From Natronolimnobius sp. AArcel1 (lineage in GTDB: Archaea > Halobacteriota > Halobacteria > Halobacteriales > Natrialbaceae), in assembly GCF_011043775.1 (NCBI RefSeq), contig NZ_JAAKXY010000005.1:62001-126000 (forward strand): a stretch of 64,000 bases of DNA, given 5' to 3'. Below the pieces are notes generated by a model that saw nothing but the letters and a program-made list of their open reading frames with translations, was not told the DNA's origin and did no database searches. The stretch's first letter is position 1; the number at the start of each line of letters is the position of its first letter. The position numbers and the translations under genes were made by a program. Shown in pieces: positions 495-23,994 of this stretch.

Positions 495-1040
495 TTGACG
501 GAAAGACAGTTATCTGCCCAGTCACGGAGCGTTAGACGGAACCGGCCACTAGAACCGTCTCAGGCAGAGACGCTCGCAGCGTACGATGGAATGCGTGGTA
601 GTGTAGAACTCACCCGTGGAGTGTTGCTTGCCGCTGGATTGATGTATGTCACTGACCCGGATGAAGTGCCCGCTACGGAGGTGATAGAGATAATTGATCA
701 GCTTTGAGAACTTGACGGAGCACTCGTCAAACAATCTGACGAAATTGAGCAAATATTCGCAGAAGTAGACGTTTCGGCTTCTCTGGTCGTCTCGCTGTCT
801 ACGGACGATGGTCCCAAGTTGGTGGCCATACGGCGAACGATCTCTGATATTACCCACGAGCTTGAAACAAAGCGGATAGATGGACAGCGATACGAGTTCG
901 AAGTTTTCGTAGAATCCCCGGAGAGCGCCTGCAGACGAGGGGAAGACCTCCAACCAATTTTACAGGAAGGTGTTGTTCTCTCGGAGAACGAGGCACTGTG
1001 GGAAGTGAAGTACGATCTGTTCGGAGGTGGTGACGAATGA
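495..1040 (+). pseudogene. MNT-nucleotidyltransferase-like antitoxin remnant, interrupted by TGA
   Basis: Two open segments in the same frame (495-704 and 708-1040) are separated only by TGA at 705-707. The second segment (ISDITHELETKRIDGQRY, FEVFVESPESACRRG) looks like the C-terminal half of the small minimal nucleotidyltransferases that pair with HEPN toxins. The catalytic GS-x(n)-DxD motif of the N-terminal half is not visible in either segment, so the protein would be inactive or is misassigned. The first segment (YDGMRGSVELTRGVLLAAGL) is not recognised. It overlaps the downstream HEPN-like ORF by 4 bases (ATGA), the usual coupling of such pairs. Function is inferred from context and weak similarity. 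Confidence 0.4.
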
Positions 1041-1291
1041 CGTCGAAAAAGTTTGAGTCGGCGCTCGGTGATGCGGAAGATGCGTTCCAGAGAAAACCCA
1101 CAAATCCTGAGGTCGGACTCGAGCACGTTTCCGACTCAACTGTCCTCCAGTTACGGAAGGCCTGTCACCTTCTCGATGCTGTAGGTTTCCTGCTCAATCG
1201 TAATGGGCACTTCACAGTCATTATCGAGGCGTGTTTCGTCTCTATCGAGCGCTCGATCCACTTCTACGTTGAAGAGAAGGGATATGATTGA
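1037..1291 (+). CDS. Truncated HEPN-like protein
   Basis: The ATG overlaps the stop of the upstream nucleotidyltransferase-like frame. The 84-residue product is helical, with VLQLRKACHLLDAVGFL and FVSIERSIHFYVEEKG, which resembles the N-terminal two thirds of haloarchaeal HEPN proteins of MNT-HEPN toxin pairs. Family members are usually 130 residues or more and carry a later R-x(4-6)-H RNase motif, which is missing here because the frame stops at GYD. It may be a dead toxin remnant. An alternative is a short unrelated helical protein. The family call rests on the pattern and on its coupled neighbour only. Confidence 0.4.
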   Translation: MTSKKFESALGDAEDAFQRKPTNPEVGLEHVSDSTVLQLRKACHLLDAVGFLLNRNGHFTVIIEACFVSIERSIHFYVEEKGYD

Positions 1292-1371: not shown

Positions 1372-2985
1372 TTACAACAACTGTTCTAGGATTTTTCGCT
1401 GTCCAGCCCGGAGATGTTGGGTGAACGTGGCTCGAGCAATACCAAGATGATCCGAGAGCTCTGTTGCACTCGAGCCACGTGGAATCTCGAAGTACTCATC
1501 GTAGAACGCGTGCCGAAGGACCTCCTGCTGGCGGTCGGTAAGTGGTTCGAGAATCTCAGTGGTCGACCCAAAGGACTGGGCCTCTGATTCGGTCCCAAAC
1601 CAGACAATTGAGGCAGTTACGTTGTCGTAGGTTTCCTCGAGAGAGTCGACAATGCTCGCGACAGAACTCGGCTCTGGAACGCTTCCAGAAAGGATGGTTT
1701 GCTCAGCAGAAACACTGGTACTGCGATACCTCACACCAGCTTCAGTGAGCGACGTTTCGGGTGTGGGTGGTGATGCAAGTAGATCACAACGGATCGTGTC
1801 TGACTCACGTGTCCACTCGAGAAGCTCGAGTCCTTCGCAGCTGTCTACAGCAGACTCGAGTTCGCCGGGGCGAACCCCCTTGACACGAGCCAGGTATAAC
1901 GTCTGGCCATCGGTGCGCTCCAGGACCGATAACACAGCAATGTCGGTAGAAACTGCCACAGCGCGAGCTAACTGGACGAGAAGAATCTCTTCATCGGTAA
2001 TCGTGACGTCAATTGAGACTGGGCGAGAAGTGAGAAGCGACTGTTTCCACTCATTTCGTTGCCGGGCGTATCCGATCAATTCTGCAAACTCCTGGAGGAG
2101 GGTTCGTTCCTGACTGGTGATCTTCGGTTCAGACGTGTAGACCCCAAGCACACCGAATTGAACGCCATCGTAAGAGATGGGAACGCCGACAGCACTGTTG
2201 AATCCATGCTTCAGAGCAATCTGTTGGTAGTCGCTGGTGGTCTCTGTCGCGTTCGAGACGACGAATGATCTGGCAACCAACTCGCCCGACTTGATTGCAG
2301 CAATTGCTGGATCCTGATCCTGCGAATCGGGACCGTTTCCCGCAATGACGCTCGTGAGGTATTCATCACACCCAACAGCTGCCTGTGGAACCACGGGACC
2401 AGACGCCGTCGCCGTGCCGATCCACGCCCCAGCATACTCGTGCTCTTCGGTTAATAACCGACAGAACTGCTCGAGAACCTCGGACGCGTTTGCCGTTGCA
2501 GTGAGCACCTCCACTGCAGCCGCTTTTCCGCTCCGTTCACGCCGGAGTTGTCGGTTGGCTCGATACGAACTGATAATTGTCCGGAGACGATTGGCCAGCA
2601 CCATGGCCTGGTCGTCGTCGTGGTCTTTGGGGAGGTAATCGGAGACCCCCCTTCTGATGGCTTCACTGGCAATGACCTCATCGCCCCGGCCCGTGATGAG
2701 CAAGAACGGCAGATCTGAATCGACCCGGCGAACGTCCTCGAGGAGGCTGAGTCCGGTATCATCACCGAGCTGGTAATCACACAGGACACACTCCGGCGTA
2801 CGGTTCTCGAAACGGCGCTTTCCTTCGGTGTAGCTATTGGCGACCGTAATGTCGAACGCGGGTTCGGTAGTTTCGAGAAGTCGGGCCGTGACGCGAGCCC
2901 ACTGTTCGTCATCGTCAACCAGCAAGATGTCTACAGGCTGTTCGAGGGCTTTTGTGGGTTCGCGCGCGGTGTTATCTCCGCTCAT
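1372..2985 (-). CDS. Response regulator with REC, GAF and HTH_10 domains
   Basis: A 537-residue regulator. Residues about 17-135 are a receiver domain: acidic pocket LLVDDDEQ, phospho-acceptor Asp near residue 70 in VLCDYQ, and the Thr/Lys switch positions in LLITGRG and DYLPKD. A GAF-type sensor follows at about 150-300 (HGFNSAVGVPI). A Bat-type linker leads to the C-terminal HTH_10 (LTDRQQEVLRHAF, GIARATFTQHLRAGQRK). A TTG start 39 bases upstream is possible, but ATG at 2985 directly precedes a typical N-terminus. Phosphorylation by a histidine kinase, plausibly the same-strand kinase just upstream at 3215-5458, would control DNA binding. About 230 bases separate the two, so co-transcription is possible but not shown. 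Confidence 0.85.
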   Translation of the reverse strand: MSGDNTAREPTKALEQPVDILLVDDDEQWARVTARLLETTEPAFDITVANSYTEGKRRFENRTPECVLCDYQLGDDTGLSLLEDVRRVDSDLPFLLITGRGDEVIASEAIRRGVSDYLPKDHDDDQAMVLANRLRTIISSYRANRQLRRERSGKAAAVEVLTATANASEVLEQFCRLLTEEHEYAGAWIGTATASGPVVPQAAVGCDEYLTSVIAGNGPDSQDQDPAIAAIKSGELVARSFVVSNATETTSDYQQIALKHGFNSAVGVPISYDGVQFGVLGVYTSEPKITSQERTLLQEFAELIGYARQRNEWKQSLLTSRPVSIDVTITDEEILLVQLARAVAVSTDIAVLSVLERTDGQTLYLARVKGVRPGELESAVDSCEGLELLEWTRESDTIRCDLLASPPTPETSLTEAGVRYRSTSVSAEQTILSGSVPEPSSVASIVDSLEETYDNVTASIVWFGTESEAQSFGSTTEILEPLTDRQQEVLRHAFYDEYFEIPRGSSATELSDHLGIARATFTQHLRAGQRKILEQLL

Positions 2986-3214
2986 CGGGCAGGACACCGC
3001 TAGAAGCGATTTCGACCGTCGCAATGGGACGGTGGGTGGTCAAGAGTGTGCGTTCGTCTGAATCCCGATCAATGAGTGTCACGGTTACACCTGTCCTCTC
3101 ATTTCCTGACGTATGTCGAACTTGGCTAAATGATGGTCGTTTATGTTTGAAAGAATTAGACCGTGAACGTACATACCACTCGCGACGATTGTCGAACATA
3201 TATAACCCGCACCA

Positions 3215-5458
3215 TCATGTGTCGGTATAGGCCGTGCTGATCTCGAATCGAGCGCCTCCGGTTTCACTGTCAGTCGCCGAAATTCTCCATCCGTGGGCTT
3301 CGACGATCGTTCGAACGATCGCCAGGCCGAATCCCGACCCATCGCCCGTCCCCATCCCGTAATCGAAGATCTCGTCGAGCGCGGTGGTACCGATTCCGGG
3401 GCCGTCGTCGGCGACGAAGAATCCATGGGGAGTAGAGCCAACACGAACGGTCGTCGCAGCCGAACTGTACTCCCCGGCGAGGTCGTTGCCGCTCGGTGTC
3501 GACGATAGTCCACCGTCGCTTTCGTCTCCACCAACGCCGCTTCCCTGGACCTCAGCTACGGCTTCGACGCCGTGACCGACGACGTTCTGAAACAGGTTCT
3601 CGAACACCTGCTGGAGTCGACTTGGATCGGCTTCGACGGCACACGTACTCTCGACGACGAGTTCGAGTGAGTGCGTGTCGACGACGTCCCAGGCTGCGTC
3701 GGCGACGGCCGCAAGCTCACACTCGCTCGTGTGTTCGACGTTCGTACTCTCGCGGGCAAATCGGGGCAGGTACTCGGTGAACTCCCGCAGTCGGTGATGG
3801 ATCTGTTCCAGATCGTCGATCGTCTGTAGCACGTCCGGCTCGGCGTCGTCCAGTTCCATGCTCAACAGCGTCGTCGTCTTTTCGGCAGTCGACAGTGGCG
3901 TCTGGAGGTCGTGGGAGATGATGCCTGCTAAACGCTCGAGGGTTCGGTTGTGCGCCTCGAGTCGCCGTTCGTACGTTTTCGATTCCGTCACGTCGATGCT
4001 CGCGAGCAACACTCGAGAGTAGTCCTCAGCCGTGGTCTGGAGGACGGTGAGTTCGAACAGTTCGTGGCGAATCTCACCGTCCAGGGTTCGATACGTCGTC
4101 TCGTCCCGGAGTCTGCAGGCTCCATCCAGCAACTGCTGGACGAGCTGGCGGTTCGTCTCGAGTGACTCGGCCGTCTGGAGATCGGGGAGTTGCTCGACAA
4201 GGTCTTTTTTCGAGGACGCACCGTAGGCGTCGAGGGCGTTCTGGTTGACCTCGAGGACGTCGACGAGTTCCAACACCCGTTCGTATTCCTCCGGATGGTC
4301 CTCGAGATACGTGGTGAGGTCCGTCGTCTCTGCTGCGATCGATTCCGCCCGATTCATCGCCGCCGAGAGGTCGAGCTCCCAGAGAACGATCGGACTACTC
4401 TCGAAGAGCGACCGATACCGTTCGCGACTCGCTTGCAGCGCGTTCTCGCGGGTGACCCGTGCTGTAATCTCGCGGAGGACTATCTGGTGGGCCTCGAGTG
4501 TCCCATCCGGTGCGTACACTGGCGAACTCGTCACGTCGAAGTGTCGCTCGCCGTCGCTCTCGGTGTCGAAGGCGACGGTGTCGACGGCAGTCAGCCGTGT
4601 TGCCTGCCGAGGAGCGTGGTGAAAAAACTCAGCGATCGGCATCCGTTCCCAGTCCGGCCCAACGGCTGCCAGCTGACGGGCAGCGGGGTTGCTGTCGATC
4701 ACCGTTCCCCGTGGATCGATCGTGACGAAGGGGTCGGTCATTCGCTCGACGGCGCGGTACCGGGCGGCAGGGATCACGTTCAGAAAGCTGGCGTAGAACA
4801 GCACCCAGATCAGCGCGAACGCCTGTGCGAGCCCACCGATCGGTGCCAGATTGAGCGTCGTCAGATCGAGATCCGAGAGCAGGTACAAAAACGAGGGTGG
4901 AAAGGCAGTGGCGAACAGTGCAACGCTCTGGAGACGGCGTCGGCCACTCGAGCGAACGGCTTCCCGGAGTGCCAGCATCAGCGCGATGAGTATCAAACTG
5001 TAGCCGATCGTTGCGTGTCCCCAGATCAGTATCCGGGCCGCTTCGTGCGGTCCCGTCATCGCGGCGGGATTCAGCGTCTCGTAGGGGTCCCACGCGAGGT
5101 GGTGAACCGAGTTGCTCCAGAGGGCGAGCTGAACCGTCACCGGATACATTGCGGCAACGAGGAGCGTTTTGCGCGTGGTTTTCAACACGTTCGCGTAGTC
5201 TGCAACCACGAGCGCGTATCCCACGATCGAGAGCTTCGCCCCGAGGAGCGCCAGATTCGCCGCGTAGGTCCACTGCTGTGGCGTCGTGACGCTCTCGGTC
5301 AGCCCGAGTCCGACGGTGTAGGCGATGCCACCGACGATCACGATCAGGAGCCCGGGTGCACTCGAGTGGTGTCGATTGCGATAGACCGGAACGAGCAAGA
5401 TGGCCAACAGGACGACGACGAGGCCACCGACGAGCAGGTAGAGTTCTTGAATCGACAT
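3215..5458 (-). CDS. Membrane PAS sensor histidine kinase with 7TM N-terminus
   Basis: A 747-residue kinase. Residues about 5-225 give seven hydrophobic segments of the HisKA_7TM type (LYLLVGGLVVVLLAILLVPV first). Two PAS regions follow (about 233-340 and 343-480). HisKA carries the phospho-acceptor His near residue 516 in IISHDLQTPLS. HATPase_c has an N-box (FENLFQNVVGHG), G1 (DDGPGI near 687) and G2 (GFGLAIVR near 712). It is membrane-bound, probably sensing a membrane or redox cue, and phosphorylates a response regulator; the REC-GAF-HTH_10 protein downstream on the same strand is the obvious candidate partner. The ATG at 5458 starts just before the first membrane segment. The signal is unknown. 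Confidence 0.88.
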   Translation of the reverse strand: MSIQELYLLVGGLVVVLLAILLVPVYRNRHHSSAPGLLIVIVGGIAYTVGLGLTESVTTPQQWTYAANLALLGAKLSIVGYALVVADYANVLKTTRKTLLVAAMYPVTVQLALWSNSVHHLAWDPYETLNPAAMTGPHEAARILIWGHATIGYSLILIALMLALREAVRSSGRRRLQSVALFATAFPPSFLYLLSDLDLTTLNLAPIGGLAQAFALIWVLFYASFLNVIPAARYRAVERMTDPFVTIDPRGTVIDSNPAARQLAAVGPDWERMPIAEFFHHAPRQATRLTAVDTVAFDTESDGERHFDVTSSPVYAPDGTLEAHQIVLREITARVTRENALQASRERYRSLFESSPIVLWELDLSAAMNRAESIAAETTDLTTYLEDHPEEYERVLELVDVLEVNQNALDAYGASSKKDLVEQLPDLQTAESLETNRQLVQQLLDGACRLRDETTYRTLDGEIRHELFELTVLQTTAEDYSRVLLASIDVTESKTYERRLEAHNRTLERLAGIISHDLQTPLSTAEKTTTLLSMELDDAEPDVLQTIDDLEQIHHRLREFTEYLPRFARESTNVEHTSECELAAVADAAWDVVDTHSLELVVESTCAVEADPSRLQQVFENLFQNVVGHGVEAVAEVQGSGVGGDESDGGLSSTPSGNDLAGEYSSAATTVRVGSTPHGFFVADDGPGIGTTALDEIFDYGMGTGDGSGFGLAIVRTIVEAHGWRISATDSETGGARFEISTAYTDT

Positions 5459-5780
5459 CCGGTCTGACGTGTCCCTGAGTTTATCCGTCTCGTATTTGAG
5501 TGTTGTCGTGCCCCAGACCGGCCGCTCGCCTGCTCACCCACGCGTACTCGTCGCCGTGGCGTACTGGTCGCTCGCGGCGCTCTCTAGCATATGATGGTAT
5601 CGAAGTTATAGCGATCAAGATAGTACGGACGGACTAGATGACGCGTACAGGCTTCGAGTCACGCTGTGCTCTGGAACGGCTGCAGTGGGGGACGTGGCTC
5701 GCTCGAGCGGCGGATGCATGTTGGCAGTCCGTCTGTGGTGAGATGGAACGGGCGAACTCGTCGAGAGAGGGACGAACCGG
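5459..5780. other. Intergenic region between divergent kinase and surface-protein genes
   Basis: No convincing gene was found in these 322 bases. An AT-rich patch near 5590-5625 (GTTATAGCG) could hold a promoter for the surface protein, but the start codon is about 175 bases further on, so a long leader or another promoter would be needed. Confidence 0.4.
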
Positions 5781-8700
5781 GTGGTCAGCGTGAGGCGTAT
5801 GGTCGGTCTCGTGGTGGTTCTCCTCGCGGCTCTGGCGCTTGGGATGGCCGGGACGGCAGCGGCCGATCCGACCGCTCCCGACTGTGAGGACGTCGAGTAC
5901 GAGGAGAACGGCGACTGGTACGAGGTCGAGAACCTGAGCCAGTTACAGTGTATCGACGAGCACGGACTCGAGAAGGACTACGTGCTCGTCGACGACATCG
6001 AGGCGAACGAAACCGAAGAGTGGAACGACGACGATGGCTTCGAGCCGATTGGAGACGGTGACAGCAGCTGGGACGTAGAAGGCGACGCATTCAACGGCAC
6101 GTTCGATGGTAACGACCGGACGATTGCCAATCTGACCATCAACCGCAGTGGAGATGACTTCGTGGGGCTGTTCGAAGTCATCGGTTCCGAAGGAACGGTT
6201 TCGGACCTCACACTCGAGTCTGCAACAGTTGAGGGAAACATCAATGTAGGCACTCTCAGTGGAGAGAATTATGGAACGGTTTCGAACCTGACACTCGAGT
6301 CTGCGACGGTTAGGGGGAACGATGATCGTATAGAGACAGGGACCCATGGTGTTGGTGGCCTCATCGGTGAGAATGAAGGAAAGATTTCGAACGTCTTCAT
6401 GAGCGTCGACGTAACGGCTTCAGGGGATACCGGTGGCGTTGTCGGATCGAATTTCGGGGGAACCATTACTGGGACAACCGTCGAGGGAACAGTCTTTTCT
6501 GAGCAGGATGCGCCCTTTTCTCGTGTTGGCGGGATCGTTGGCTATCACCAACCTAGCTCCAGTATCGATTCGAGTTCGTTTACGAACGGAACGGTTGATG
6601 GGGACGACGAGAAAATCGGCGGCATCGCTGGCGAAGCCGATGGTAGTCCGATCACGAACTCGAGTGCGAACGGAACGATTGGAAACGAGGATGCAGATTC
6701 GGTCGGCGGGCTCGTCGGATTCGCAGGGAATGCCGACCTCTCCGATTCGTACGCCACGGCGACCGTTCGCGGGAACGACTCGGTTGGTGGTGTCATCGGT
6801 GACGCTACGGGTAGTGCCCTCGAGCGAACGTACGCAGTCGGGGAAGTCGATGGGGACGGAGACGCTGTTGGCGGCCTCGTCGGGGATGGGTTATCGCATT
6901 TTGATATCGAGGACTCCTACTGGGACACCGAAACGACAGGGGTGAGTAAATCCTTCGACAGCGACGAGGAAGAACCTATCACCGACGACGAGTACGGACT
7001 GACCACCGACGAGATGACCGGCGCGAACGCCCCGCAGAACATGGACGGCTTCGGATTCCCGGACGGCGACGATCGCTGGCACGCCGTCGAAGACGACTAT
7101 CCCGTCCTCTCGTACGAGGACACCGACCCCGTCTACGGTGTGGAGATCACCGGCACGAACTCTGCCATCGAGGAGGGTGAGATACTCGAGGTTGACGCCA
7201 CCGTCATCAACTGGGGCCCAGACGGCGGCGCACAATCCATCGAACTGCGGGACTTCGACGGCGACGAGGTGGACACCGAGGAGGTGACCCTCGATAGCGG
7301 CGAGGACATCGAGCTGACACTCGAGTGGGAGACCGAAGAGGACGAGGGTGATCTCGACGATGTGACGGTTGCAAGTGAGAACCACACGGACACCAAGACA
7401 GTGTCCGTCGGCGCTGGTGAGGTGATCGCACAGTGTCAAAGCATCGATACTGCGGGAGCGTACGAACTGACCGGCGACATCGAAGCGAGCGGGGAGTGCA
7501 TCGAAATCGAGGCCGATGATGTCTCTCTCGACGGCAACGATCACACGATTTCCGGCAGCGGAACGGGCATCGTTGCGAATGACAACTCCACCGTCACCAT
7601 CACCAACGTCACGCTCAGCGGATTGGACGTCGGCATTGAGATGACTGAAATTGAGGACGCGACCGTCACCAACACCACCGTCGAGGAGAGTGAGAGCAGT
7701 GCCATCGCTCTCGGGGGCGTCGAGGATGCTACCGTCAAATACAACACTATTGAGGGGAGCGACGAGTCCGGACTCGTATTCGAGGACGTTCAGGGCACCA
7801 CCATCGCCAACAACACGGTAACGTCGGGTGCCACCAGCGGCATCCATCTCGCTGACGCTACAGACACAGCCGTCGAGAACAACACGCTCAGGGAAAACGA
7901 CGAAAACGGAATGCACGTTGTGAACTCCGAGAAACTCGTCGTCTCGAGGAACGAAGTCGTCGACAACGGGGATGAAGACGAAGATGCAGGTATCTACTTT
8001 TCGGGAACCACAGACAGCCATCTCGAGGCAAACAACCTCACGGCCAACGCCCAAGCCGCACTGTTCCTCGAAGAGTCAAGCGAGGATAATGATATTCTAG
8101 GTAACGTTATTAACGTATCAAGTATCGATGGGAGCGAGCATTGGAGAGGAATTAAAATTGATGAGTCTTCAGGGAACATAATTTCCGATTCGGTGATCAC
8201 GGGTAGTGAGCAAGTTTCTATATCGGAATACGGCGAGGATCTCATCTACGTTGACAGCGCAGAGACAGTCGTCACACATAACGAAATCTACGGGCACGCA
8301 GGCGTTGGCATCGATATTCGTGGTGAGTCGAATACTGTTGACAATAATTTCATCTCTGGTTCCTTTGTTTCCGTGGCTGGTTTGTATGATACCAACGGCC
8401 ACGCAATACGAGTTTCCGGCACTGATGATGACTGGTCGGTGACGAACAATTCACTCACCGGCGCGGAAGTATGGGGAGACAACAGCGCAGGAATCGCCAC
8501 GGTCGGCCAGGAAACCGTCGAAATGCAAAACAACACCGGGACAAAATCTGGCAATGACCTGCAAATTACCCATGTTGAGCAGTCCGTCGAGAACCAACAG
8601 CTCACGACACCGGCAGGCGAAACAACGGTGACGTTCACTGGAGTGGAACTGCTTCTCGATGGGAAGGATGAACCACCGAGCATCGAGAGCCCCGACGATG

Positions 8701-11700
8701 TCGAATCAACTGGCTACTTCTTCAGAGTCTACGAGAGTGGCAGCCAGTTCGGATACATGGATCTCGAGCTCGACTACAACGAAACGCGACTCACAACAGG
8801 AGACACAATCGACCCCGAGACGCTCTCGCTCTGGCGACTCGACAACCAAGAGTGGGAAGAGATTGATGACTCCGGTGTCGACACCGACGAGCAGGTTGTC
8901 ACCGGCAACGTCACCGAGGACAGGAGAATCGGCGTCTTCGGCGAGGAACCAGCCCTCGTCGATCTCGAGGTCGACGACGTAACCATCGAGCAAGGCGAGC
9001 CACTCGAGGTCGACCTCGAGGACGCCGAAGACTCGATCGGGGATCCTTATGACGACGAGAGCGAAGTTGTGTTCGGGGCTGGCGTCTTCGACGAGCCGGT
9101 CACAAAGAACATCACGTTCGAGGATGGGGACGCAAGCGACGTGGAACTCCTCGGTGCAGATGAGACGGCGGACCTCTCCAAAGCGAGCCCGATCGTCGAA
9201 GTCTACACCAAAGACCAGGTCCAGGCAGACACGTTTAACCTCACCGTGGAGGGCGTCCTTGCTGACTTCGATGTCGACGACGACGTAGCAATCGAGCAAG
9301 GAGAACCACTCGAGATTGAGCTCGAGAACGCCGAAGACAAGGCTGGCGACCCATACACTGACACGGTCGGCCTGACGGGTGACGATATCCACGGACAGGA
9401 GCTGTTGGCCGACGGCGTCGAGTTCGAAAACGACGGTTCCGTGAGCGAGATCGAACTCTTCGAGGCAGAGATCACAGAAGAGATTTCTGCGGGAGCGTAC
9501 GATGACGTCACCATCGAAGCCGACGAGACCGACGCAACGACCCAGATCAACGTAACACTCGAGGCTGTGCTCACGGACTTCGCCGTCGAAAACGAGGGAC
9601 TCGAGCAAGGTGACTCACTCACCATGACGGCTTCTGACGCGGTCGACCTGGCCGGAGATGAGTTCCACGGTGAAAAGCCGATCAGCGTCTCGACCGGCGA
9701 CCTCGAAGGTGTCGAGACAGATATGGAGAAGTCCGTTGACTTCGCGGGCACTGACGACGTAGAATTCGAACTCCTCGAGGCAGACGAGACGGCTACTCTT
9801 GCCGCACAGGAGACGAGCATCGACCTCGAGTGGGCTGAGGACACCGACGTGGAAGCGACGTCAGAAGTGACCATCACGGCGGTGCTGGACAAATTCACCG
9901 TCGAACCAACGAACGAGGGTATTGAGCAGGGTGATGACTTGACAATCGACGTCACCGACGCCGAAGACATCGCTGGAGACACGTTCACTGGCACCATCGA
10001 CTTGATGGTCGACGATATCGATGAGGAAGACCCCACCACGACGGACGTCGAAATCAGTGAGGGGGTGGCAACCAGTGTCGAACTGTTCGACGGCGAAACA
10101 CCAACCCTCACCGCAGGATCGTACGACGACCTCGCGGTGACGTCCCAAGAAGTAGGCGACGAGTTCGACGTGACCGTCGATCCCGTTCTCACAACGCTCG
10201 TAGTCGAGAACGCGACGATCACTCGAGGTGAGCCATTGGACATCACGATCACGGAGGCATTCGACCTGGCTGGCGACCCGTTCGAGGAAGAGCGCGAGGC
10301 CACCATCAAGATGGACGACATCGGGGGCATCGACAACGAGACCACGTCGGTCGTATTCGACGGCGATGACACCGTCGACCTCACCGGAGTACTCGACGGT
10401 GAGACCACACTCGATATCGATGCCGACACGTACACGCTTGAGGTGACTGCCGAATCAGCTGAGGAGGAGTTCGAGCTAAACGTGGAAGACCTCTTTGCCG
10501 ACGGTGACGGGAGCGCGGACGACCCTTACCTCATCGAAGACTGGGAGCACCTCGACAACACTCGATTCGTACTGGACGCGAACGTCACCCTGGCGAACAC
10601 TCTCGATGCCGACACGCCCGGTTACAGCGAGGTTGCCAGTGAAAGCGCCAACGACGGTGACGGGTTCGAGCCGATTGGAGAGAACCTTGACGCCTTCGAA
10701 GGATCGTTCGACGGGGACGGATCGACGATTTCGGATCTGTACATCGATCGTACTGATGAGTCAGACCTCGTGGGTCTCTTCGGCCAGACGGGCGGGGCGG
10801 CCACTATCGAAGACGTCCACCTCGAGAATGCGACTGTTCGAGGCACATCGAACGTTGGCGGGCTCGTCGGCTCTGCAGACGGCACGGTCGCGAACGTCAG
10901 CGCGACGGTCGATGCCGAAGGAGACCCGGGCAGTGAACCTGGAGGTCCGTTCGAAATCGGCGGTCTCCTCGGGACCAATAGTGGCCAGGTCGACAACGCC
11001 ACGGTTGAGGGCTCGGTCACTGTCGAAGACGGAAGCGAGGTCGGCGGCCTCGTCGGATACAGTGCGGAATCTGGCGGCGGAATTGGCGACATCACAGATT
11101 CCCACGCGTCCGTCACCGTCGACGCCGAGGACAGCACGAACGTCGGTGGCCTGCTCGGAAACGCTGGTCCGGGTGGCACAGTGAGTGTCTCGTCTGCGAC
11201 AGGCACCGTCGAGGGCGAAGAGAACGTTGGCGGGCTCGTCGGCGTGGCCCAAAGCGACATCGACAGTTCGTTCGCCAACGGGACAGTTAGCGGGACCAAG
11301 AGCGTCGGCGGACTCGTTGGATCGAACAATAACGGTATCGTACAAGAGACGACTGCAAACAGCCCCGTCACTGGTGATGAGAACGTGGGCGGGCTCATCG
11401 GAGAGAACGCTGGCGACGTCTCGCAGTCGTATGCCACCGGCGGAATCGACGAAACGGGGGGCAGCATCGGTGGGCTGGTTGGATACGATGAGGGCGACGT
11501 CTCTGACTCCTACTGGGACGTCGACGCGACTACCCAGTTTGCTTCCGCAGGCTCAGATGCCGACGAGTACGGCCTGCGGACGGCCGAAATGACTGACCTG
11601 AATGCGACCGACACGATGGACAGCCTCGCCTTCCACGATAGTGAGGGGACCTGGTACGCTACCGACGACTACCCCGCCCTCGAGTGGCAAGAAACGGATC

Positions 11701-13355
11701 CCTTCTTTGAGGTAAACATCACTGAGACGAGCACACCAGCCGAAGAGGGAGACTCACTCAAGGTGACGGCCAATGTTACTAACTGGGCTGACAATGGTGA
11801 CCAGCGCCTCACCCTCACGAGTGACGCGACATCGATCAATCTCGACGAGGATGACATTGACCTTGTCAGTGGTGAGCGTGCCGGCCCAGTTTCACTCACC
11901 TGGGACACTGAAACCGGTGACGCTGGAGATCACACCATCACCGTCTCGAGTGAGAACCATAGTGAGACCGAATCGGTGACTATCGAAACCGCGCCATCAC
12001 CCTCACCATCGCCACCTGCCCCTGATCCTGCCGATATTTCGGTGACTGAGGCGACTCTCGAGAACACGACTGCCCTCGTGAACGGCCCAGTTCCGGTGAA
12101 CACTACCCTCGAAAACAACGGAGACGAAGATGGCGAGCATACGGTCGTCTTCTACGCTGATGGCGATGCGTTCGCGAACGAAACCACAACGGTCGAAGGT
12201 GGCTCGAGTACGACAGTCACGGCGAACGAAAGTGTCGAGGAAGTTGGCACGTACACCATCACCGCCGATGACGTCGAGGCAGGAAACGTAACCGTTGATC
12301 GCCCCGCCTCGTTCGATCTCGAGGCAGTTTCGTTCTCCGAAGACGAAGTCAAACCCAGTGCGGCCGTGACACTTACAGCTGCAATTAATAACTCGGGGAC
12401 GTTATCAGCTGACCGAAACGTCACCGTTGCCTATCTCGAAGACGGCAAAACAAACGAGACGGGTGAGGACTTAGACAACGAATCGCTCACACTTGAGGGT
12501 GGTGAAAACGAGACCCTCGAATTCGGTTTCAAGTCACCCACGACAGAGGGGAACGCGAGCTATCGCGTCAAGACGGGTAATGACGAGGCGATGGCAAATC
12601 TCTCGGTCATCGAAGACGAACAATCCAAGTTCACGATCATCTACGCGGACGCAGACTACGGGATTCTCGAACCCGGCGAAGAAGAACGAGTGATCGTCAC
12701 CGTCGCCAACCAAGGCGACGAAGCAGGCGACGCAAACGTCGCACTTGATCTCGAGGGTGAAGAACAGTCAGAAACCCTCGAGTTGGACCCCGGAAGGGCC
12801 GACGATGCCGAGTTCTCGCTGAGTGCTCCCAACGAAGCGGGTGAGTACGAGTATACCATCACCGTCGGTGAGGAAGAAACAACCGAGACGATGATCGTCG
12901 AAGCACTAGAACCATCCGAGCCCGACTGGCGCGTGAGTGCCATCTATTCCGAGCCGACTACGGCTGTACCCGGGGAGGATGTGGACATCTGGGTCACAAT
13001 CGAAAACGAGGGGGACGAAGATGAGACCGTCGAGGTCGAGTTCTATTTCGACGAGGAGACGTCGGAGATACAAACCTTCGATATCGAGGCCGGGGATGGC
13101 GAGCTCGTCGAAACTACTCTTTCGGCCCCAGAAGAGGAAGGTATGTACGACTTTGGGGTCGTAATCGCGGAAGGAGAGAGCTTTGTAGACGAAGTGGAGG
13201 GGACAAAATCTGTCTCCGAAGACGCTGGCTACGACGATGACGCTGACGACGGATCGGATGGTGAATACGACGATGGACAACCGGGCTTTGGAATCGTCGT
13301 GACCCTCGTGTCGATAGCCCTCTTGATATTTACAATCAGATATCGGCGACGGTGA
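5781..13355 (+). CDS. Giant secreted surface protein: GLUG arrays, NosD-like beta-helix, novel repeats, CARDB, PGF-CTERM
   Basis: A 2,524-residue cell-surface protein. A Sec-type signal peptide (VGLVVVLLAALALGMAGTAAA) opens it; GTG 5781 is annotated, but ATG 5799 fits equally well. Order: GLUG repeats (about 105-375; units like GVGGLIGENEGKISN), CARDB-like Ig fold (452-547), right-handed beta-helix of NosD type (550-890), five tandem repeats of 101-105 residues (1059-1570), second GLUG array (1572-1913), a CARDB-like domain, a Ser-Pro linker (SPSPSPPAPDP), four more CARDB-like domains, an Asp/Gly-rich spacer, then PGFG plus a hydrophobic helix and RYRRR. The tail fits PGF-CTERM, which archaeosortase A replaces with a lipid anchor. 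It is very acidic with many N-glycosylation sequons. Role in adhesion or shape is inferred; partner unknown. Confidence 0.85.
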   Translation: MVSVRRMVGLVVVLLAALALGMAGTAAADPTAPDCEDVEYEENGDWYEVENLSQLQCIDEHGLEKDYVLVDDIEANETEEWNDDDGFEPIGDGDSSWDVEGDAFNGTFDGNDRTIANLTINRSGDDFVGLFEVIGSEGTVSDLTLESATVEGNINVGTLSGENYGTVSNLTLESATVRGNDDRIETGTHGVGGLIGENEGKISNVFMSVDVTASGDTGGVVGSNFGGTITGTTVEGTVFSEQDAPFSRVGGIVGYHQPSSSIDSSSFTNGTVDGDDEKIGGIAGEADGSPITNSSANGTIGNEDADSVGGLVGFAGNADLSDSYATATVRGNDSVGGVIGDATGSALERTYAVGEVDGDGDAVGGLVGDGLSHFDIEDSYWDTETTGVSKSFDSDEEEPITDDEYGLTTDEMTGANAPQNMDGFGFPDGDDRWHAVEDDYPVLSYEDTDPVYGVEITGTNSAIEEGEILEVDATVINWGPDGGAQSIELRDFDGDEVDTEEVTLDSGEDIELTLEWETEEDEGDLDDVTVASENHTDTKTVSVGAGEVIAQCQSIDTAGAYELTGDIEASGECIEIEADDVSLDGNDHTISGSGTGIVANDNSTVTITNVTLSGLDVGIEMTEIEDATVTNTTVEESESSAIALGGVEDATVKYNTIEGSDESGLVFEDVQGTTIANNTVTSGATSGIHLADATDTAVENNTLRENDENGMHVVNSEKLVVSRNEVVDNGDEDEDAGIYFSGTTDSHLEANNLTANAQAALFLEESSEDNDILGNVINVSSIDGSEHWRGIKIDESSGNIISDSVITGSEQVSISEYGEDLIYVDSAETVVTHNEIYGHAGVGIDIRGESNTVDNNFISGSFVSVAGLYDTNGHAIRVSGTDDDWSVTNNSLTGAEVWGDNSAGIATVGQETVEMQNNTGTKSGNDLQITHVEQSVENQQLTTPAGETTVTFTGVELLLDGKDEPPSIESPDDVESTGYFFRVYESGSQFGYMDLELDYNETRLTTGDTIDPETLSLWRLDNQEWEEIDDSGVDTDEQVVTGNVTEDRRIGVFGEEPALVDLEVDDVTIEQGEPLEVDLEDAEDSIGDPYDDESEVVFGAGVFDEPVTKNITFEDGDASDVELLGADETADLSKASPIVEVYTKDQVQADTFNLTVEGVLADFDVDDDVAIEQGEPLEIELENAEDKAGDPYTDTVGLTGDDIHGQELLADGVEFENDGSVSEIELFEAEITEEISAGAYDDVTIEADETDATTQINVTLEAVLTDFAVENEGLEQGDSLTMTASDAVDLAGDEFHGEKPISVSTGDLEGVETDMEKSVDFAGTDDVEFELLEADETATLAAQETSIDLEWAEDTDVEATSEVTITAVLDKFTVEPTNEGIEQGDDLTIDVTDAEDIAGDTFTGTIDLMVDDIDEEDPTTTDVEISEGVATSVELFDGETPTLTAGSYDDLAVTSQEVGDEFDVTVDPVLTTLVVENATITRGEPLDITITEAFDLAGDPFEEEREATIKMDDIGGIDNETTSVVFDGDDTVDLTGVLDGETTLDIDADTYTLEVTAESAEEEFELNVEDLFADGDGSADDPYLIEDWEHLDNTRFVLDANVTLANTLDADTPGYSEVASESANDGDGFEPIGENLDAFEGSFDGDGSTISDLYIDRTDESDLVGLFGQTGGAATIEDVHLENATVRGTSNVGGLVGSADGTVANVSATVDAEGDPGSEPGGPFEIGGLLGTNSGQVDNATVEGSVTVEDGSEVGGLVGYSAESGGGIGDITDSHASVTVDAEDSTNVGGLLGNAGPGGTVSVSSATGTVEGEENVGGLVGVAQSDIDSSFANGTVSGTKSVGGLVGSNNNGIVQETTANSPVTGDENVGGLIGENAGDVSQSYATGGIDETGGSIGGLVGYDEGDVSDSYWDVDATTQFASAGSDADEYGLRTAEMTDLNATDTMDSLAFHDSEGTWYATDDYPALEWQETDPFFEVNITETSTPAEEGDSLKVTANVTNWADNGDQRLTLTSDATSINLDEDDIDLVSGERAGPVSLTWDTETGDAGDHTITVSSENHSETESVTIETAPSPSPSPPAPDPADISVTEATLENTTALVNGPVPVNTTLENNGDEDGEHTVVFYADGDAFANETTTVEGGSSTTVTANESVEEVGTYTITADDVEAGNVTVDRPASFDLEAVSFSEDEVKPSAAVTLTAAINNSGTLSADRNVTVAYLEDGKTNETGEDLDNESLTLEGGENETLEFGFKSPTTEGNASYRVKTGNDEAMANLSVIEDEQSKFTIIYADADYGILEPGEEERVIVTVANQGDEAGDANVALDLEGEEQSETLELDPGRADDAEFSLSAPNEAGEYEYTITVGEEETTETMIVEALEPSEPDWRVSAIYSEPTTAVPGEDVDIWVTIENEGDEDETVEVEFYFDEETSEIQTFDIEAGDGELVETTLSAPEEEGMYDFGVVIAEGESFVDEVEGTKSVSEDAGYDDDADDGSDGEYDDGQPGFGIVVTLVSIALLIFTIRYRRR
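8955..10487 (+). repeat. Five tandem ~103-residue protein repeats inside the surface protein
   Basis: Units start at about 8955, 9258, 9570, 9885 and 10188 (spacings 303, 312, 315 and 303 bases). Each has a beta-strand start, an IEQG(E/D)xL motif (ITRGEP in the last), an A-x-D-x-x-GD(P/x)(Y/F) motif and a later ELF/LLxAD(E/x)T strand. Divergence between copies argues for old duplications kept by selection. The repeat was not recognised as a named family. Confidence 0.7.
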
Positions 13356-13434: not shown

Positions 13435-13950
13435 GCCGGTCGTTCGCTCGAGATAGGTTTTCACCCCCGAGAGGGCGACGGGGCAACCAAATCACTGCTT
13501 CGTCGGAATGGACGATCACTCGAGAGCATCGCAGCAGCAAGCGTCTATGCGGTCTGTCGGTGCAACGGACTCGGACGAAGCCTCGAGGAGATCAGTCATG
13601 TAGCGGTGTGTTCACAATCGCATCTCGAGTGTGCGTATGCAGCGATGAACACCGAATTGGAACTGCCCACTGTCGTTCCACAGCCCCAGAGCGTTCTTCC
13701 ACGACTCGCAAGCGAGCTAGGAGCACCAAATGACGTTCAACATCGAGCACTCGAGTTGGCGGCACTTGGAACGGAGGCCCGAATCACGACTGGTCGTCAC
13801 CCACACGGATTCGCTTCGGCCTGTCTGTACAGAGCGGGACAAGAACGTGGCTGGCTGGTCACACAACAGGAACTCGCCGCGGTCTCGAACACGTCTCCGA
13901 AAACGATCCGAGCGCACAGAGATGCGCTTCTCGAAATTCTCGAGAGATAG
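13435..13950 (+). pseudogene. Headless transcription factor B (TFB) fragment
   Basis: The frame opens after a TGA at 13432 and runs to 13950. It reads as the cyclin-fold core of a TFB: SLESIAAASVYAVCRCNG then LEEISHVA, an LPRLASELG segment, a second repeat with ASACLYRAG, and the C-terminal helix-turn-helix QELAAVSNTSPKTIRAHRD. The N-terminal zinc ribbon and B-finger are absent, and there is no ATG/GTG/TTG before the conserved region; the first possible start is GTG 13606 or ATG 13645. Without the ribbon it could not recruit RNA polymerase as a normal TFB. It is most likely a degraded expanded-family TFB; alternatively a short form from 13606 is a TFB decoy. Confidence 0.65.
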
Positions 13951-14021
13951 AAAGCGGTGTGATGACGGTTGAGTTCGGCTCAGATCTACTGCTCGAGAGT
14001 CGGTGTCTGCAAGTCGCGTTT

Positions 14022-14124
14022 GTCGAGGGAACCTCGACAGGCTGTCAGACTACGTCTGACAACGTCGTTGGAGCAGGAAGCCCCTGCCTCAAGGAACCAG
14101 CTTTTGCTGGTGAGTAGGCAGGGG
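14022..14124 (+). repeat. Three-hairpin cluster resembling the right end / omega-RNA scaffold of a TnpB element
   Basis: Three perfect inverted repeats follow one another: GTCGAGG-N3-CCTCGAC (14022-14038), GTCAGAC-N3-GTCTGAC (14044-14060), and a nested structure with outer stem CCCCTGCCT/AGGCAGGGG (14081-14124) and inner stem CCAGC-TTTT-GCTGG (14097-14110), followed by TAGTTCAC. The last structure has the layout I know from right ends of haloarchaeal IS1341-type elements, where the DNA also encodes the TnpB guide-RNA scaffold. No tnpB is adjacent, so this is an orphan end or a small non-autonomous element. Expression as RNA is inferred only. Confidence 0.55.
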
Positions 14125-14150
14125 TAGTTCACTGGGGCAGTCAGCGTGAC

Positions 14151-15200
14151 TCACGTGGCGTCCGTCTTCCCGTTATCGTCGTTGAGCCACTGCAACACTG
14201 GGAAGCGATCGGGATCAGCTTGGGTGACCCACGTTTCCTCAAAATCTAGCGCGTTCATGTTCTCCGCAGCCCTCTCACCTTGCATCTCGTCGGTTGACAG
14301 CCCAACCACATTTCGGTCGCCCTCGCCGTCTCCGACTCCCTCCGTCTGACCCGTCGCCTCGGTGTCCCAGTAGCCCGAAGATACCACAGCGTCTTGCTCC
14401 CCGGCGAATCCGCCACTAGTATCGTCGCCAATCACATCGACGGCAGCCCACGATCTCACCACCTCGCCTCCGGCGTTCGCTCCAACAAAACCGCCGACCT
14501 GGTCTTCACCAGTCACGTCACCACCAGCACACGATTCCAACACCTCACCGGTGTTCCGCCCGACGAAACCGCCGACCGAGGTCTCACCAGTGATATCGGC
14601 CGCACACGTAAACGACTCCAACACTTCTCCGTCTCTGTTCTCCCCAACTAGGCCGCCAACAGTACGCTCGCCCGTGATGTTGGCTTCACACACAGATGAC
14701 TCCAACACTTCTCCCTCCTCGTTCCTCCCGGCGAGGCCGCCGACATTACGCTGGCCCGTAATATCGGCGTTAGTGACTGTGATATTCTTGATTGTCCCCA
14801 TATTCCAACTGAAGAGCCCCATCCCTACATGCGATGTCCACCGGCGGTCAATCTTTAGGTCAGCAATTTCGTGGCCGTTTCCGTCAAACGTGCGGTTAAA
14901 TGCCGACGTAGCATTGCCGGACGGCCGGTTCCCGATCGAGAGCCAGCCCCCATCAGAATTGCCGACGTGTTCGTCGTAGCCCGCGGTTGCTTCATCAAGG
15001 TTGGTGATCAGAACGTATTCATCGATGTCAGGGTCCTCGTCGCGGACGGCATTGAGGTCGTGCCAGTCTTCAATTTCCTCGACACCATCATCAGAACCCA
15101 AACACCCCGTGACTGCGACTGTACTCACAGCACTGGCAACAAGGAATGCTCGACGATCCAGACCGTGTCGACCGTGTTCCGGGGAGGATCTATCGTTCAC
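14151..15200 (-). CDS. GLUG-repeat Tat lipoprotein
   Basis: The start is GTG at 15200, not an upstream in-frame codon: a TATA box (TTATACC on the minus strand, about 15221-15229) lies ~25 bases before it, and translation then begins VNDRSSPEHG close to the Tat motif DRRAFLVASA and lipobox VTGC. The mature part has a GLUG array of four or five units (RNVGGLAGRNEEGEVLES, RTVGGLVGENRDGEVLES and so on) and ends with a YWDTEATG...LSTDEM segment, also found after both GLUG arrays of the giant surface protein 1 kb away. It is probably membrane-anchored outside the cell. The two proteins look like paralogues and may act at the surface together, which is inference. The gene lies downstream of padR on the same strand. 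Confidence 0.8.
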   Translation of the reverse strand: MNDRSSPEHGRHGLDRRAFLVASAVSTVAVTGCLGSDDGVEEIEDWHDLNAVRDEDPDIDEYVLITNLDEATAGYDEHVGNSDGGWLSIGNRPSGNATSAFNRTFDGNGHEIADLKIDRRWTSHVGMGLFSWNMGTIKNITVTNADITGQRNVGGLAGRNEEGEVLESSVCEANITGERTVGGLVGENRDGEVLESFTCAADITGETSVGGFVGRNTGEVLESCAGGDVTGEDQVGGFVGANAGGEVVRSWAAVDVIGDDTSGGFAGEQDAVVSSGYWDTEATGQTEGVGDGEGDRNVVGLSTDEMQGERAAENMNALDFEETWVTQADPDRFPVLQWLNDDNGKTDAT

Positions 15201-15273
15201 ACTATTATTTTTAACACACTTGGTATAAGAAAGACGAGCTATATCTTCTGGGAGAGTGAATCCGAAAAGCGCG

Positions 15274-15564
15274 TTATTCGCTCTCGAGGAGTTCGTCGAC
15301 GTATTGATCTTCCCACTCACGGCGGGCTTCGATCTCACGTTGACCACGTTTAGTTAGTGTGTAGAAGTTCGTTCGACGGTCTTCCTGGCCTTTCTCGACG
15401 AGGCCTTTGTCAACGATTGTATCGAGGTTCGGGTACAACCGACCGTGGTGAATCTCCTTTTCATAGTAGTCCTCGAGTTCGTCTTTGATTGCGAGCCCGT
15501 GTGGTTCATCCTGACCGGCAACAGTGTACAAGAGGTCGCGCTGGAAGCCTGTGAGATCGTACAT
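15274..15564 (-). CDS. PadR-family transcriptional regulator
   Basis: A 96-residue winged-helix protein: LTGFQRDLLYTVAG, PHGLAIKDELEDYYEKEI, GRLYPNLDTIVDKGLVEK, RTNFYTLTKRGQREI and a C-terminal dimer helix. This is the compact PadR form common in haloarchaea. It lies on the same strand just upstream of the GLUG lipoprotein, 73 bases from that start, with the lipoprotein having its own TATA box in the gap. It could control that gene or itself; the ligand is unknown. Confidence 0.88.
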   Translation of the reverse strand: MYDLTGFQRDLLYTVAGQDEPHGLAIKDELEDYYEKEIHHGRLYPNLDTIVDKGLVEKGQEDRRTNFYTLTKRGQREIEARREWEDQYVDELLESE

Positions 15565-15661
15565 ACTGAGACTTTATCTATCGAAGACTAAGTAATTGGT
15601 GAAAAATGATACTGACCAGTAGTTAGGCTTTAGACTCTTTGATTAAGATAGTGTCTGGAAC

Positions 15662-15955
15662 TCAGATCTCGTCTTCACCAACGGTCGTGATGCGCAGTTT
15701 CTCGTTCACTTCGTAGAGGTAACCACGCTCAATCAGCCGTGTCACTGCGTACTCAGCATCTCCCTGCTCGAGGTCGATCTCGTTGGTGGTTCGTAACAGC
15801 GAAATAGTATCGTCGCGCTCGAGTCCTGGGACCTGGCTATTCTTGTCATCATGTCCCTGCTGAGCAATCGCGTCGGTGAGGACATCATATACCCCCATAA
15901 CCCACTTTGAAAGTGGTGGACGAGGATCGGTAGCCAAGGACATCTGTCTGGACAC
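15662..15955 (-). CDS. Small winged-helix-like haloarchaeal protein
   Basis: A 97-residue protein (or 93 from the Met at 15943). After a short N-terminus it has a helical pattern SKWVMGVYDVLTDAIAQQ, then TISLLRTTNEIDLEQGD and AEYAVTRLIERGYLYEV with a terminal beta strand (KLRITTVGEDEI). The helix-helix-wing layout suggests a winged-helix DNA-binding or protein-binding fold of a type often seen in haloarchaea as hypothetical proteins. No named family was recognised. It is transcribed in the same direction as padR, about 100 bases upstream of it. Confidence 0.6.
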   Translation of the reverse strand: MSRQMSLATDPRPPLSKWVMGVYDVLTDAIAQQGHDDKNSQVPGLERDDTISLLRTTNEIDLEQGDAEYAVTRLIERGYLYEVNEKLRITTVGEDEI

Positions 15956-16222
15956 CTAGTACTAGCCGATTCGGTGTACTCCTGCTTAATTCTACTCCCC
16001 AAATTCAGCACTCATGGCAGGCCGAAAGTCGCCTATGGCCTCGAGACGGGACACATAGAGTCAAAACCCATCACACACACACCCATTTCCAATTGATCAA
16101 CAAGAAATGAGAGCGCCAGACAACGATCTAGTCTATAATAGTAGAATCGTATTTTCTGACTCAGAATGTGGTAGCGATGTTATTGATGTTGTGACGAGAG
16201 CATATTGAATAACGATCCGAGA

Positions 16223-16324
16223 ATGAAAGAAGCTACTGCCGAAGAAGTCAGAGACGCAATCCTGGCCCTCGAGGATGACGAGGACGCCGAAGACACTGAC
16301 GAAATCATCATTGCTGACGAGTGA
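16223..16324 (+). CDS. Possible 33-residue acidic peptide
   Basis: ATG-initiated ORF of 34 codons: a short amphipathic helix (KEATAEEVRDAILALED) followed by an acidic tail and IIIADE. Composition is typical of haloarchaeal coding sequence, but no homologue is recognised. It could also be a leftover of a larger gene. Confidence 0.3.
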   Translation: MKEATAEEVRDAILALEDDEDAEDTDEIIIADE

Positions 16325-16370
16325 CCGGAGGTGAGGTCAAGGGTCCAGTTCGACCGTCCCGTCTCTGTAG

Positions 16371-16386
16371 TGTCCCCAAGGGGACA
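16371..16386. repeat. Inverted repeat TGTCCCC-AA-GGGGACA
   Basis: A perfect 7-bp stem with a 2-base loop, about 50 bases before the start of the broken winged-helix ORF at 16439. It could be an operator or a stem-loop terminator; nothing decides between them. Confidence 0.4.
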
Positions 16387-16438
16387 AAGCCGAAAAATAC
16401 ATTGCCACGCCGCTGGCAGGGGTGAAGATATCTTCCTC

Positions 16439-22769: not shown

Positions 22770-23017
22770 TCAGATCGGCGTGTGCACGGACCACTTCGGG
22801 CCCGCCGACGTGGTGAATAGGGTCACCAGCCGGCTGTCCTCGGGTCCATAGCTTAGATCCGAGACGTAGACTTCGAGGACATCGGTGATCCCCTTGGGGC
22901 CAACGTCGATCAGAACGAGGCCACGTTCCGTCTCGACGGGTGTGGCGTGCTTGGCAGCTCGAGGTCGCCGTACTCGACGGTGGACGCCAGGGCGTGAACG
23001 TATCCTGATTCTCCCAT
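22770..23017 (-). pseudogene. Metallo-beta-lactamase-fold protein remnant
   Basis: On the minus strand ATG 23017 starts MGESGYVHALASTVEYGDLE; a frame change near 22,960 then gives AAKHATPVETERGLVLIDVG, PKGITDVLEVYVSDLSYG and PEDSRLVTL, the first strands of an MBL-fold hydrolase. The metal-binding HxHxDH motif that should follow is gone (the frame runs FTTSAGPKWSV to a stop). Fragment of about one third of a normal gene. Confidence 0.5.
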
Positions 23018-23130
23018 ATCGGGAGATTCGATCAGCGGCCCAACGCGTTCGATATCGAGGCTCAGAACTGTCTCGGCCAGCGCCTGCAAGTGGTTGCACT
23101 ATTACCGATATCGCCGTTGGTGACAATTGC

Positions 23131-23994
23131 ATGACTGAATCTCCCCTGAGTCGACGACGAATTATTCAGATCGGCGGCGGCCTCGTGGTGGTCAGTGGCG
23201 TCGGAGGTACTACGGCCGCCTCGAGTGACCACGAACCAACCGACCAGCCAACCGATACCGGCTTCCGGACGCGAAGTGCACACCTCTCACCCGATGCACC
23301 TACCATCGACATCTACGTCGACGGAGAGCGGGTTCGCGAGGACATCTCGTACGGAACGGTCACCGACTACCGCGACCTCGAACCCGGTACGTACTCGGTC
23401 CAGGTCGTGCCCACCGGTGAAGACCCGTCCGAAGCAGTGCTCGAAGAGACCGACGAGATCGACGACGCGGATTCCACTCTCGCGGTAGTCGGTGAAGTGG
23501 CCGCCGAAAACCAGCCCCTCGAGGCACTGTTTCTCGACGATGATAACAGCCCGGTCGATCCGGGTACCGCTCGCGTTCGCGTCCTTCACGCTTCACCCGA
23601 CGCGCCTGCGGTGGACGTGGTTGCCGGTGAAAACGGGGACACGCTGTTCGAGAACGTCGCGTTCGGCGAGTCCGGCTACGTCGAAGTCCCCGAAGGAGAG
23701 TATCCGCTCGCCATCTATCCGGCAGGCGACCGAGAGACCAGCGTCTTCGAAGTCGACGTGTCCCTCGCCGGTGGAACCGTCTACTCCGCGTTCGCGATTG
23801 GCTACCTCGAGCCGGAGGAAGCACCCGCCGATGAGCCGTTCGAGATCCTTCTCACGGAGGATTCCCTCCCGGACGACGAGAACGTTGAGTCGGACGAAGC
23901 GAAGCTCAACGAAGACGAGCCGGAGAAAGAGCCTGAAGAGGAACTGAAAGAAGACGAACCAGAGAAAGACGAGACAGAGAAGAAGGCTACGTGA
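23131..23994 (+). CDS. Secreted DUF4397 protein
   Basis: A 287-residue protein. Start ATG 23131 puts the twin-Arg motif (LSRRRIIQIGGGLVVVSG) at residue 6. The mature part contains two related DUF4397 beta-domains, recognisable by RSAHLSPDAPTIDIYVDG and RVLHASPDAPAVDVVAGE, each followed by a YGxV...LEPGTYSV-type strand. The C-terminal ~50 residues are a Glu/Lys-rich charged tail (repeats of KEDEPEKDE type) with no membrane segment. It is exported by Tat and probably sits at the cell surface. DUF4397 proteins are common in haloarchaea and of unknown function. Confidence 0.85.
   Translation: MTESPLSRRRIIQIGGGLVVVSGVGGTTAASSDHEPTDQPTDTGFRTRSAHLSPDAPTIDIYVDGERVREDISYGTVTDYRDLEPGTYSVQVVPTGEDPSEAVLEETDEIDDADSTLAVVGEVAAENQPLEALFLDDDNSPVDPGTARVRVLHASPDAPAVDVVAGENGDTLFENVAFGESGYVEVPEGEYPLAIYPAGDRETSVFEVDVSLAGGTVYSAFAIGYLEPEEAPADEPFEILLTEDSLPDDENVESDEAKLNEDEPEKEPEEELKEDEPEKDETEKKAT

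Follow-up and report, generated by a model that had tools for sequence, protein, structure and literature searches.

The gene at positions 5781-13355 on the plus strand of the 64,000-nucleotide stretch of Natronolimnobius sp. AArcel1 DNA that we analyzed (the window) encodes a large modular haloarchaeal protein that is probably anchored at the cell surface, an assignment that is well supported. On balance, our preferred reading is that the protein is acidic and adhesin-like, is probably anchored by an archaeosortase and has local control elements dedicated to it. Starting at a GTG codon, the gene reads through 2524 codons with no internal stop in one open frame, and its product has 2524 residues. 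A chance open reading frame was ruled out because the frame is full length and the same domain order recurs in orthologues at about 70-75% identity.

Pfam searches with the giant protein identified GLUG (PF07581; 1.4e-28, 97.7 bits against a cut-off of 20.5, in 12 stretches), CARDB (PF07705; 3.8e-22, 78.8 bits against a cut-off of 22.7, in 6 stretches), Beta_helix (6.9e-31) and NosD (5.8e-23), with all Pfam matches above the curated cut-offs. The N-terminal half comprises a signal (residues 1-28), a GLUG array (29-448), an Ig-like module (449-545) and a beta-helix (546-930), while the C-terminal half has five repeats (1055-1572), a second GLUG array (1573-1972), another Ig-like module (1973-2070), CARDB modules (2071-2475) and a tail of QPGFG, transmembrane segment and RRR (Table 1). 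Together, the frame at its predicted position and these matches bore out the original prediction of a giant protein ordered as GLUG, beta-helix, repeats, GLUG, CARDB and tail. Its composition (24% Asp plus Glu, pI 4.05, 48 N-X-S/T sites) is as expected for a secreted haloarchaeal protein.

Table 1. Features of the giant gene and its neighbors in the window.
Feature	Position	Strand	Basis
RR2 response regulator: receiver, GAF, BAT, HTH_10	1372..3024	-	Pfam
HK2 histidine kinase: 7TM sensor, PAS domains, HATPase	3215..5458	-	HisKA_7TM 2.4e-20, HATPase_c 8.1e-14
Intergenic region of 322 bp between the divergent genes; presumed shared promoter	5459..5780	.	Gene coordinates; promoter function inferred
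Predicted Sec-type signal peptide (MVSVRRMVGLVVVLLAALALGMAGTAAA)	5781..5864	+	Read off translation; hydrophobic leader also in orthologues
GLUG array 1, predicted beta-solenoid	5865..7124	+	Pfam GLUG; AF2 model
Ig/CARDB-like module after GLUG array 1	7125..7415	+	Iterated repeat profile, residues 456-543, i-E 7e-22
NosD-type right-handed parallel beta-helix	7416..8570	+	Pfam Beta_helix and NosD; Foldseek
Post-helix linker domain, no family match	8571..8942	+	73-78% identical in orthologues; low model confidence
Five 101-106-aa repeats, Ig-like beta-sandwich	8943..10496	+	Repeat alignment; AF2; Foldseek
GLUG array 2	10497..11696	+	Pfam GLUG and genome search
Ig/CARDB-like module after GLUG array 2	11697..11990	+	Iterated repeat profile, residues 1980-2069, i-E 4.5e-19
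CARDB stalk, about four modules	11991..13205	+	Pfam CARDB, best at residues 2381-2471
Acidic linker, QPGFG, transmembrane segment and RYRRR end: PGF-CTERM-like tail	13206..13355	+	
398-aa GLUG protein, Tat/lipobox-like leader	14151..15347	-	Pfam GLUG 2.2e-9; in duplicated 2.9-kb block

An AF2 model of residues 27-1054, built with six sequences, had a mean pLDDT of 67.6. Most of GLUG array 1 (model residues ~10-360) was at 80-95 and most of the NosD-type helix at 70-90; confidence was low in the Ig/CARDB-like module between them (about 50-68) and in the last 130 residues. In this model GLUG array 1 reads as a beta-solenoid. Foldseek searches with the N-terminal model returned right-handed beta-helices of glycan lyases and hydrolases, of NosD and of the adhesin PfbA, the best matches being polysaccharide lyases and glycan hydrolases; whole-query TM-scores were low because the query consists of several domains whose relative position is uncertain. 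The helix is NosD-like only, as the giant scored 64.9 bits with the NCBIfam NosD model TIGR04247 against a cut-off of 300, by which we rejected its being a NosD copper maturation protein. A sequence search of the PDB with the giant identified no relatives.

The five repeats had been proposed as novel, which held for their sequence but not for their fold. The AF2 model of one repeat unit, made with 22 such units taken from the window and from related loci, had a mean pLDDT of 93.3 and is an all-beta domain plus one short helix. Foldseek matched it to Ig-like domains, including that of complement C3, with weak E-values of 0.003 and above; the Ig-like fold class is thus fairly clear in the model, but relatedness is not. 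Iteration of the repeat profile on related loci recruited the module behind each GLUG array and also gave weak matches to CARDB modules. Since ordinary CARDB modules were also recruited, the result points to kinship of the Ig type rather than to a separate family, and the repeats are best regarded as a diverged lineage of Ig-like spacer. The predicted fold and the profile link to CARDB-like modules led us to reject a categorically new domain.

The claim of a PGF-CTERM tail was upheld in part. The extreme C-terminus (QPGFGIVVTLVSIALLIFTIRYRRR) has the PGF motif, hydrophobic segment and basic end, and the PGFG motif, transmembrane segment and basic end are conserved in orthologues. In addition, the AArcel1 genome encodes ArtA (TIGR04125, 324.9 bits against a cut-off of 75). 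The PGF-CTERM model TIGR04126, however, scored only 15.2 bits on the tail, below its curated cut-off of 24.5. These findings are suggestive of a PGF-CTERM-type substrate of archaeosortase A.

To place the giant among its relatives we searched 81 genomes in the family Natrialbaceae, eight of which, AArcel1 included, matched the repeat block at E <= 1e-5. The original prediction would have been refuted by the absence of any orthologue with this order of domains, but two were found: a 2533-residue protein of Natronosalvus amylolyticus (G033), 75% identical over its full length, and a 3121-residue protein in genome G008. The former is WP_254810907.1, annotated as "NosD domain-containing protein" and located on plasmid unnamed4 (417,097 bases). 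The orthologue in Natronobiforma cellulositropha (G016) has 2793 residues and just two repeats, and a Halovenus metagenome-assembled genome, from another haloarchaeal family, has a partial relative (68%). A contig scan with the single giant protein as query found no relatives, and a scan with the orthologue alignment found matches in Natronobiforma cellulositropha and a Halovenus MAG only.

The gene is patchy, as it is absent from the nearest relative genome, that of the congener G001, in which ArtA is 92% identical. The giant is 74-75% identical in G033 and G016, though ArtA in these genomes is 68% and 60% identical, respectively. This patchiness suggests that the gene has probably undergone lateral transfer. 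The G008 protein is about 75% identical to the giant over its N-terminal two thirds, with several CARDB modules down to 38%; as read from this alignment, modules of the C-terminal stalk are exchanged between orthologues.

The original prediction was silent on what we consider the strongest functional clue, namely the divergent 7TM kinase, the BAT response regulator and a second module in mirror image. The genes of HK2 and RR2 are directly divergent from the giant, and the two proteins have the domain content of a two-component system (HisKA_7TM, PAS and HATPase_c in the kinase; Response_reg, GAF, BAT and HTH_10 in the regulator). A second GLUG giant of 1385 residues lies just to the left, 9 kb from the first (G000:C5:54476-58633, minus strand; L009 2477-6634), and is likewise encoded divergently to a 7TM kinase and regulator (RR1) of its own on the plus strand, so that the two modules are in mirror image. 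Its C-terminal PGF motif is of the variant form SGF; the G001 orthologue has TPGF. Over the parts that align, identity between the two kinases and between the two regulators is 37-43% (37% for RR1 and RR2), so the modules do not represent a recent duplication. Only four HisKA_7TM genes are present in the AArcel1 genome, two of which adjoin the two giants; BAT domains are common in it, with 32 matches.

Several other observations were made in and around this region. In the gap between RR1 and RR2, a 485-bp piece (window 804-1288) is 94.8% identical to G001:C6:1907-2391, which is away from the orthologous module in that genome. This match suggests that the DNA was rearranged where the two modules meet; the piece is single-copy in the AArcel1 genome, by which we rejected its being a multi-copy mobile element. 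Downstream of the first giant, a block of ~2.9 kb (window 13508-16401) has a TFB remnant, a GLUG Tat-lipoprotein-like gene, a PadR-type gene and a wHTH-like gene. A copy that is 89-93% identical is on contig C14 of the AArcel1 genome (L027) and another is in G001:C5 (L032), and the block is probably a duplicated or mobile regulatory/surface cassette. The transcription factor B remnant (Pfam TFIIB; window 13435-13950, plus strand) lacks about 0.5 kb relative to the C14 copy, which has a 330-residue ORF. Farther along, window 22885-23994 (plus strand) encodes a 369-residue protein with two DUF4397 stretches.

Based on its architecture, we propose that the strongly acidic giant would be secreted and then held at the wall or membrane by its archaeosortase-type tail. 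The two GLUG beta-solenoids and the NosD-type beta-helix would form elongated binding surfaces, which the Ig-like and CARDB spacers would carry. Its likely job would be adhesion by contact, with polysaccharide or other cells as the most probable partners, and the divergent 7TM histidine kinase and BAT-type response regulator probably control its production. A point against this view is that adhesion is a default reading for such architectures. A beta-helix with GLUG solenoids on anchored Ig-like spacers makes adhesion to glycan or cells the most likely use. The frame, the domain order, the orthologues, the ArtA gene and the gene arrangement were observed directly, the folds are predictions, and we infer secretion, anchoring, adhesion and regulation by the neighboring pair.

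A glycan ligand is favored by the genes close to the neighboring GLUG giant, which include a GH81, a GH3 enzyme, an ABC importer and a TrmB-type sugar regulator, and by a GH10 that adjoins its G001 orthologue; the orthologues of the window giant itself have other neighbors. The same genes would fit a role in polymer use, in which the giant is a polysaccharide accessory: it would keep the cell attached to an insoluble glycan, or its beta-helix would act on that glycan. That the top Foldseek matches are polysaccharide-active enzymes, and that one orthologue belongs to Natronobiforma cellulositropha, are consistent with this role, which overlaps with adhesion. However, Pfam identified no glycan-degrading family or known carbohydrate-binding module in the giant, and around its true orthologues in G033 and G008 most neighboring genes are of other kinds, a glycosyltransferase in G008 being the exception. 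We regard a polysaccharide accessory as rather unlikely.

The linkage of giants to regulators extends beyond the window. We sampled the GLUG loci of the family, with 20 arbitrary 20-kb stretches of the same genomes (342 genes) as controls, and asked whether either of the first two ORFs on the 5' side encodes a kinase, a BAT-type regulator or a FilR1-type regulator. ORFs came from mechanical gene calling, and the profiles for kinases and regulators derived from five loci of this type; P0001 and L056 were counted by hand as these loci end near or inside the gene. GLUG proteins of at least 1000 residues had a 5'-side HK/RR, 7TM-BAT or FilR1 regulator in 13 of 22 cases, mostly divergent, although these cases are not independent since some of the loci are orthologous. 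The same linkage was found for 5 of 342 control genes and for none of 7 shorter GLUG proteins. The kinase pair is not obligatory, as 9 of the 22 giants had none of these regulators and the orthologues of the window giant in G033 and G008 have a divergent FilR1-type regulator, not HK/RR.

Public annotation independently supports the linkage. The GLUG giant of Natronorubrum bangense has a divergent 7TM kinase, which mechanical gene calling had missed, and a helix-turn-helix regulator; that of Haloarcula pelagica has a divergent FilR1 regulator, and that of Halorientalis litorea a bacterio-opsin-activator-type regulator just upstream. The arrangement was not found in the public annotation of Natrialba magadii. 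In the open-access literature on archaeal GLUG proteins and two-component systems, we did not find the pairing described.

Further regulators were seen beside the giants. Natronobiforma has a complete TFB flanked by two GLUG giants. In G008, a 7TM sensor fused to GAF-BAT-HTH_10, without kinase or receiver, adjoins a 2729-residue GLUG giant (L061 12150-14396) and is apparently a one-protein membrane regulator. In N. amylolyticus, a protein of 1146 residues with a FilR1-type regulator, a STAND NTPase and TPR repeats is encoded directly downstream of the giant orthologue (L050 3815-7255).

The tight linkage of 7TM kinases to GLUG giants could also mean that the giant provides the kinase with its extracellular input, binding a ligand or surface and signaling through it, so that the two would form a sensor complex. 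We consider this distinctly improbable, because kinase-less regulators (FilR1, BAT without receiver, TFB) occupy the same position elsewhere, which expression control fits better. The type of regulator varies and its 5' position is constant, suggesting that the common theme is control of the expression of a costly surface protein, whose production would then be limited to particular conditions.

The size, acidity and repeats of the giant would suit a protective or shielding coat without specific binding, like halomucin of Haloquadratum walsbyi, which has been compared with GLUG-domain proteins (PMC3119063). Halomucin is also a giant secreted repeat protein, a likeness by description, but it is several times larger (7837-9159 residues) and is described as a secreted cloud around cells. 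That distinct modules keep their order at 70-75% identity suggests a function beyond bulk shielding, and we think such a coat very unlikely. Least probable of all, with hardly any weight in our view, is the stalk of a contact-dependent toxin or self/non-self recognition system, which the swapped C-terminal stalk modules and the hypervariable Ig-protein module described in Thermococcales (PMC8416519) might recall: the giant has no toxin domain, by which toxin delivery was rejected, its C-terminus is a conserved anchor, and no immunity-like gene was seen downstream.

Adhesion, the reading we prefer, has been proposed for the GLUG-motif surface proteins of Methanimicrococcus blatticola (PMC9723798). 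The AArcel1 giant is likewise a predicted surface protein with GLUG motifs, but in it two GLUG arrays occur together with a NosD-type helix, five Ig-like repeats and a CARDB stalk, and its gene has divergent regulators. It resembles the large, secreted CARDB proteins noted in Halobacteria in size, predicted secretion and the presence of several CARDB domains; PMC8416519 treats those by arCOG content, with GLUG/helix order and 7TM-kinase linkage not described in the passages concerned. The pneumococcal surface adhesin PfbA has a right-handed beta-helix and is among the Foldseek matches of the model, a likeness at the level of fold only, at about 10-12% identity. The full-length orthologue WP_254810907.1 has the same domain order, but a FilR1-type helix-turn-helix regulator as divergent neighbor where AArcel1 has HK/RR.

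We know of few archaeal adhesins besides pili, and to our knowledge the triggers of their production are mostly unknown. The recurrent pairing of these giants with dedicated divergent regulators yields concrete candidates for surface contact under signal control in haloarchaea, and a search next to 7TM kinases and FilR1 regulators offers a way to more of them. More tentatively, and with less confidence than in the adhesin-like role, the GLUG giants may constitute a regulated contact system, in which each has its own exchangeable switch (7TM kinase plus BAT regulator, 7TM-BAT fusion, FilR1 or TFB) and the cassettes spread between species. If this speculation is correct, a cell would have a set of individually inducible surface filaments.
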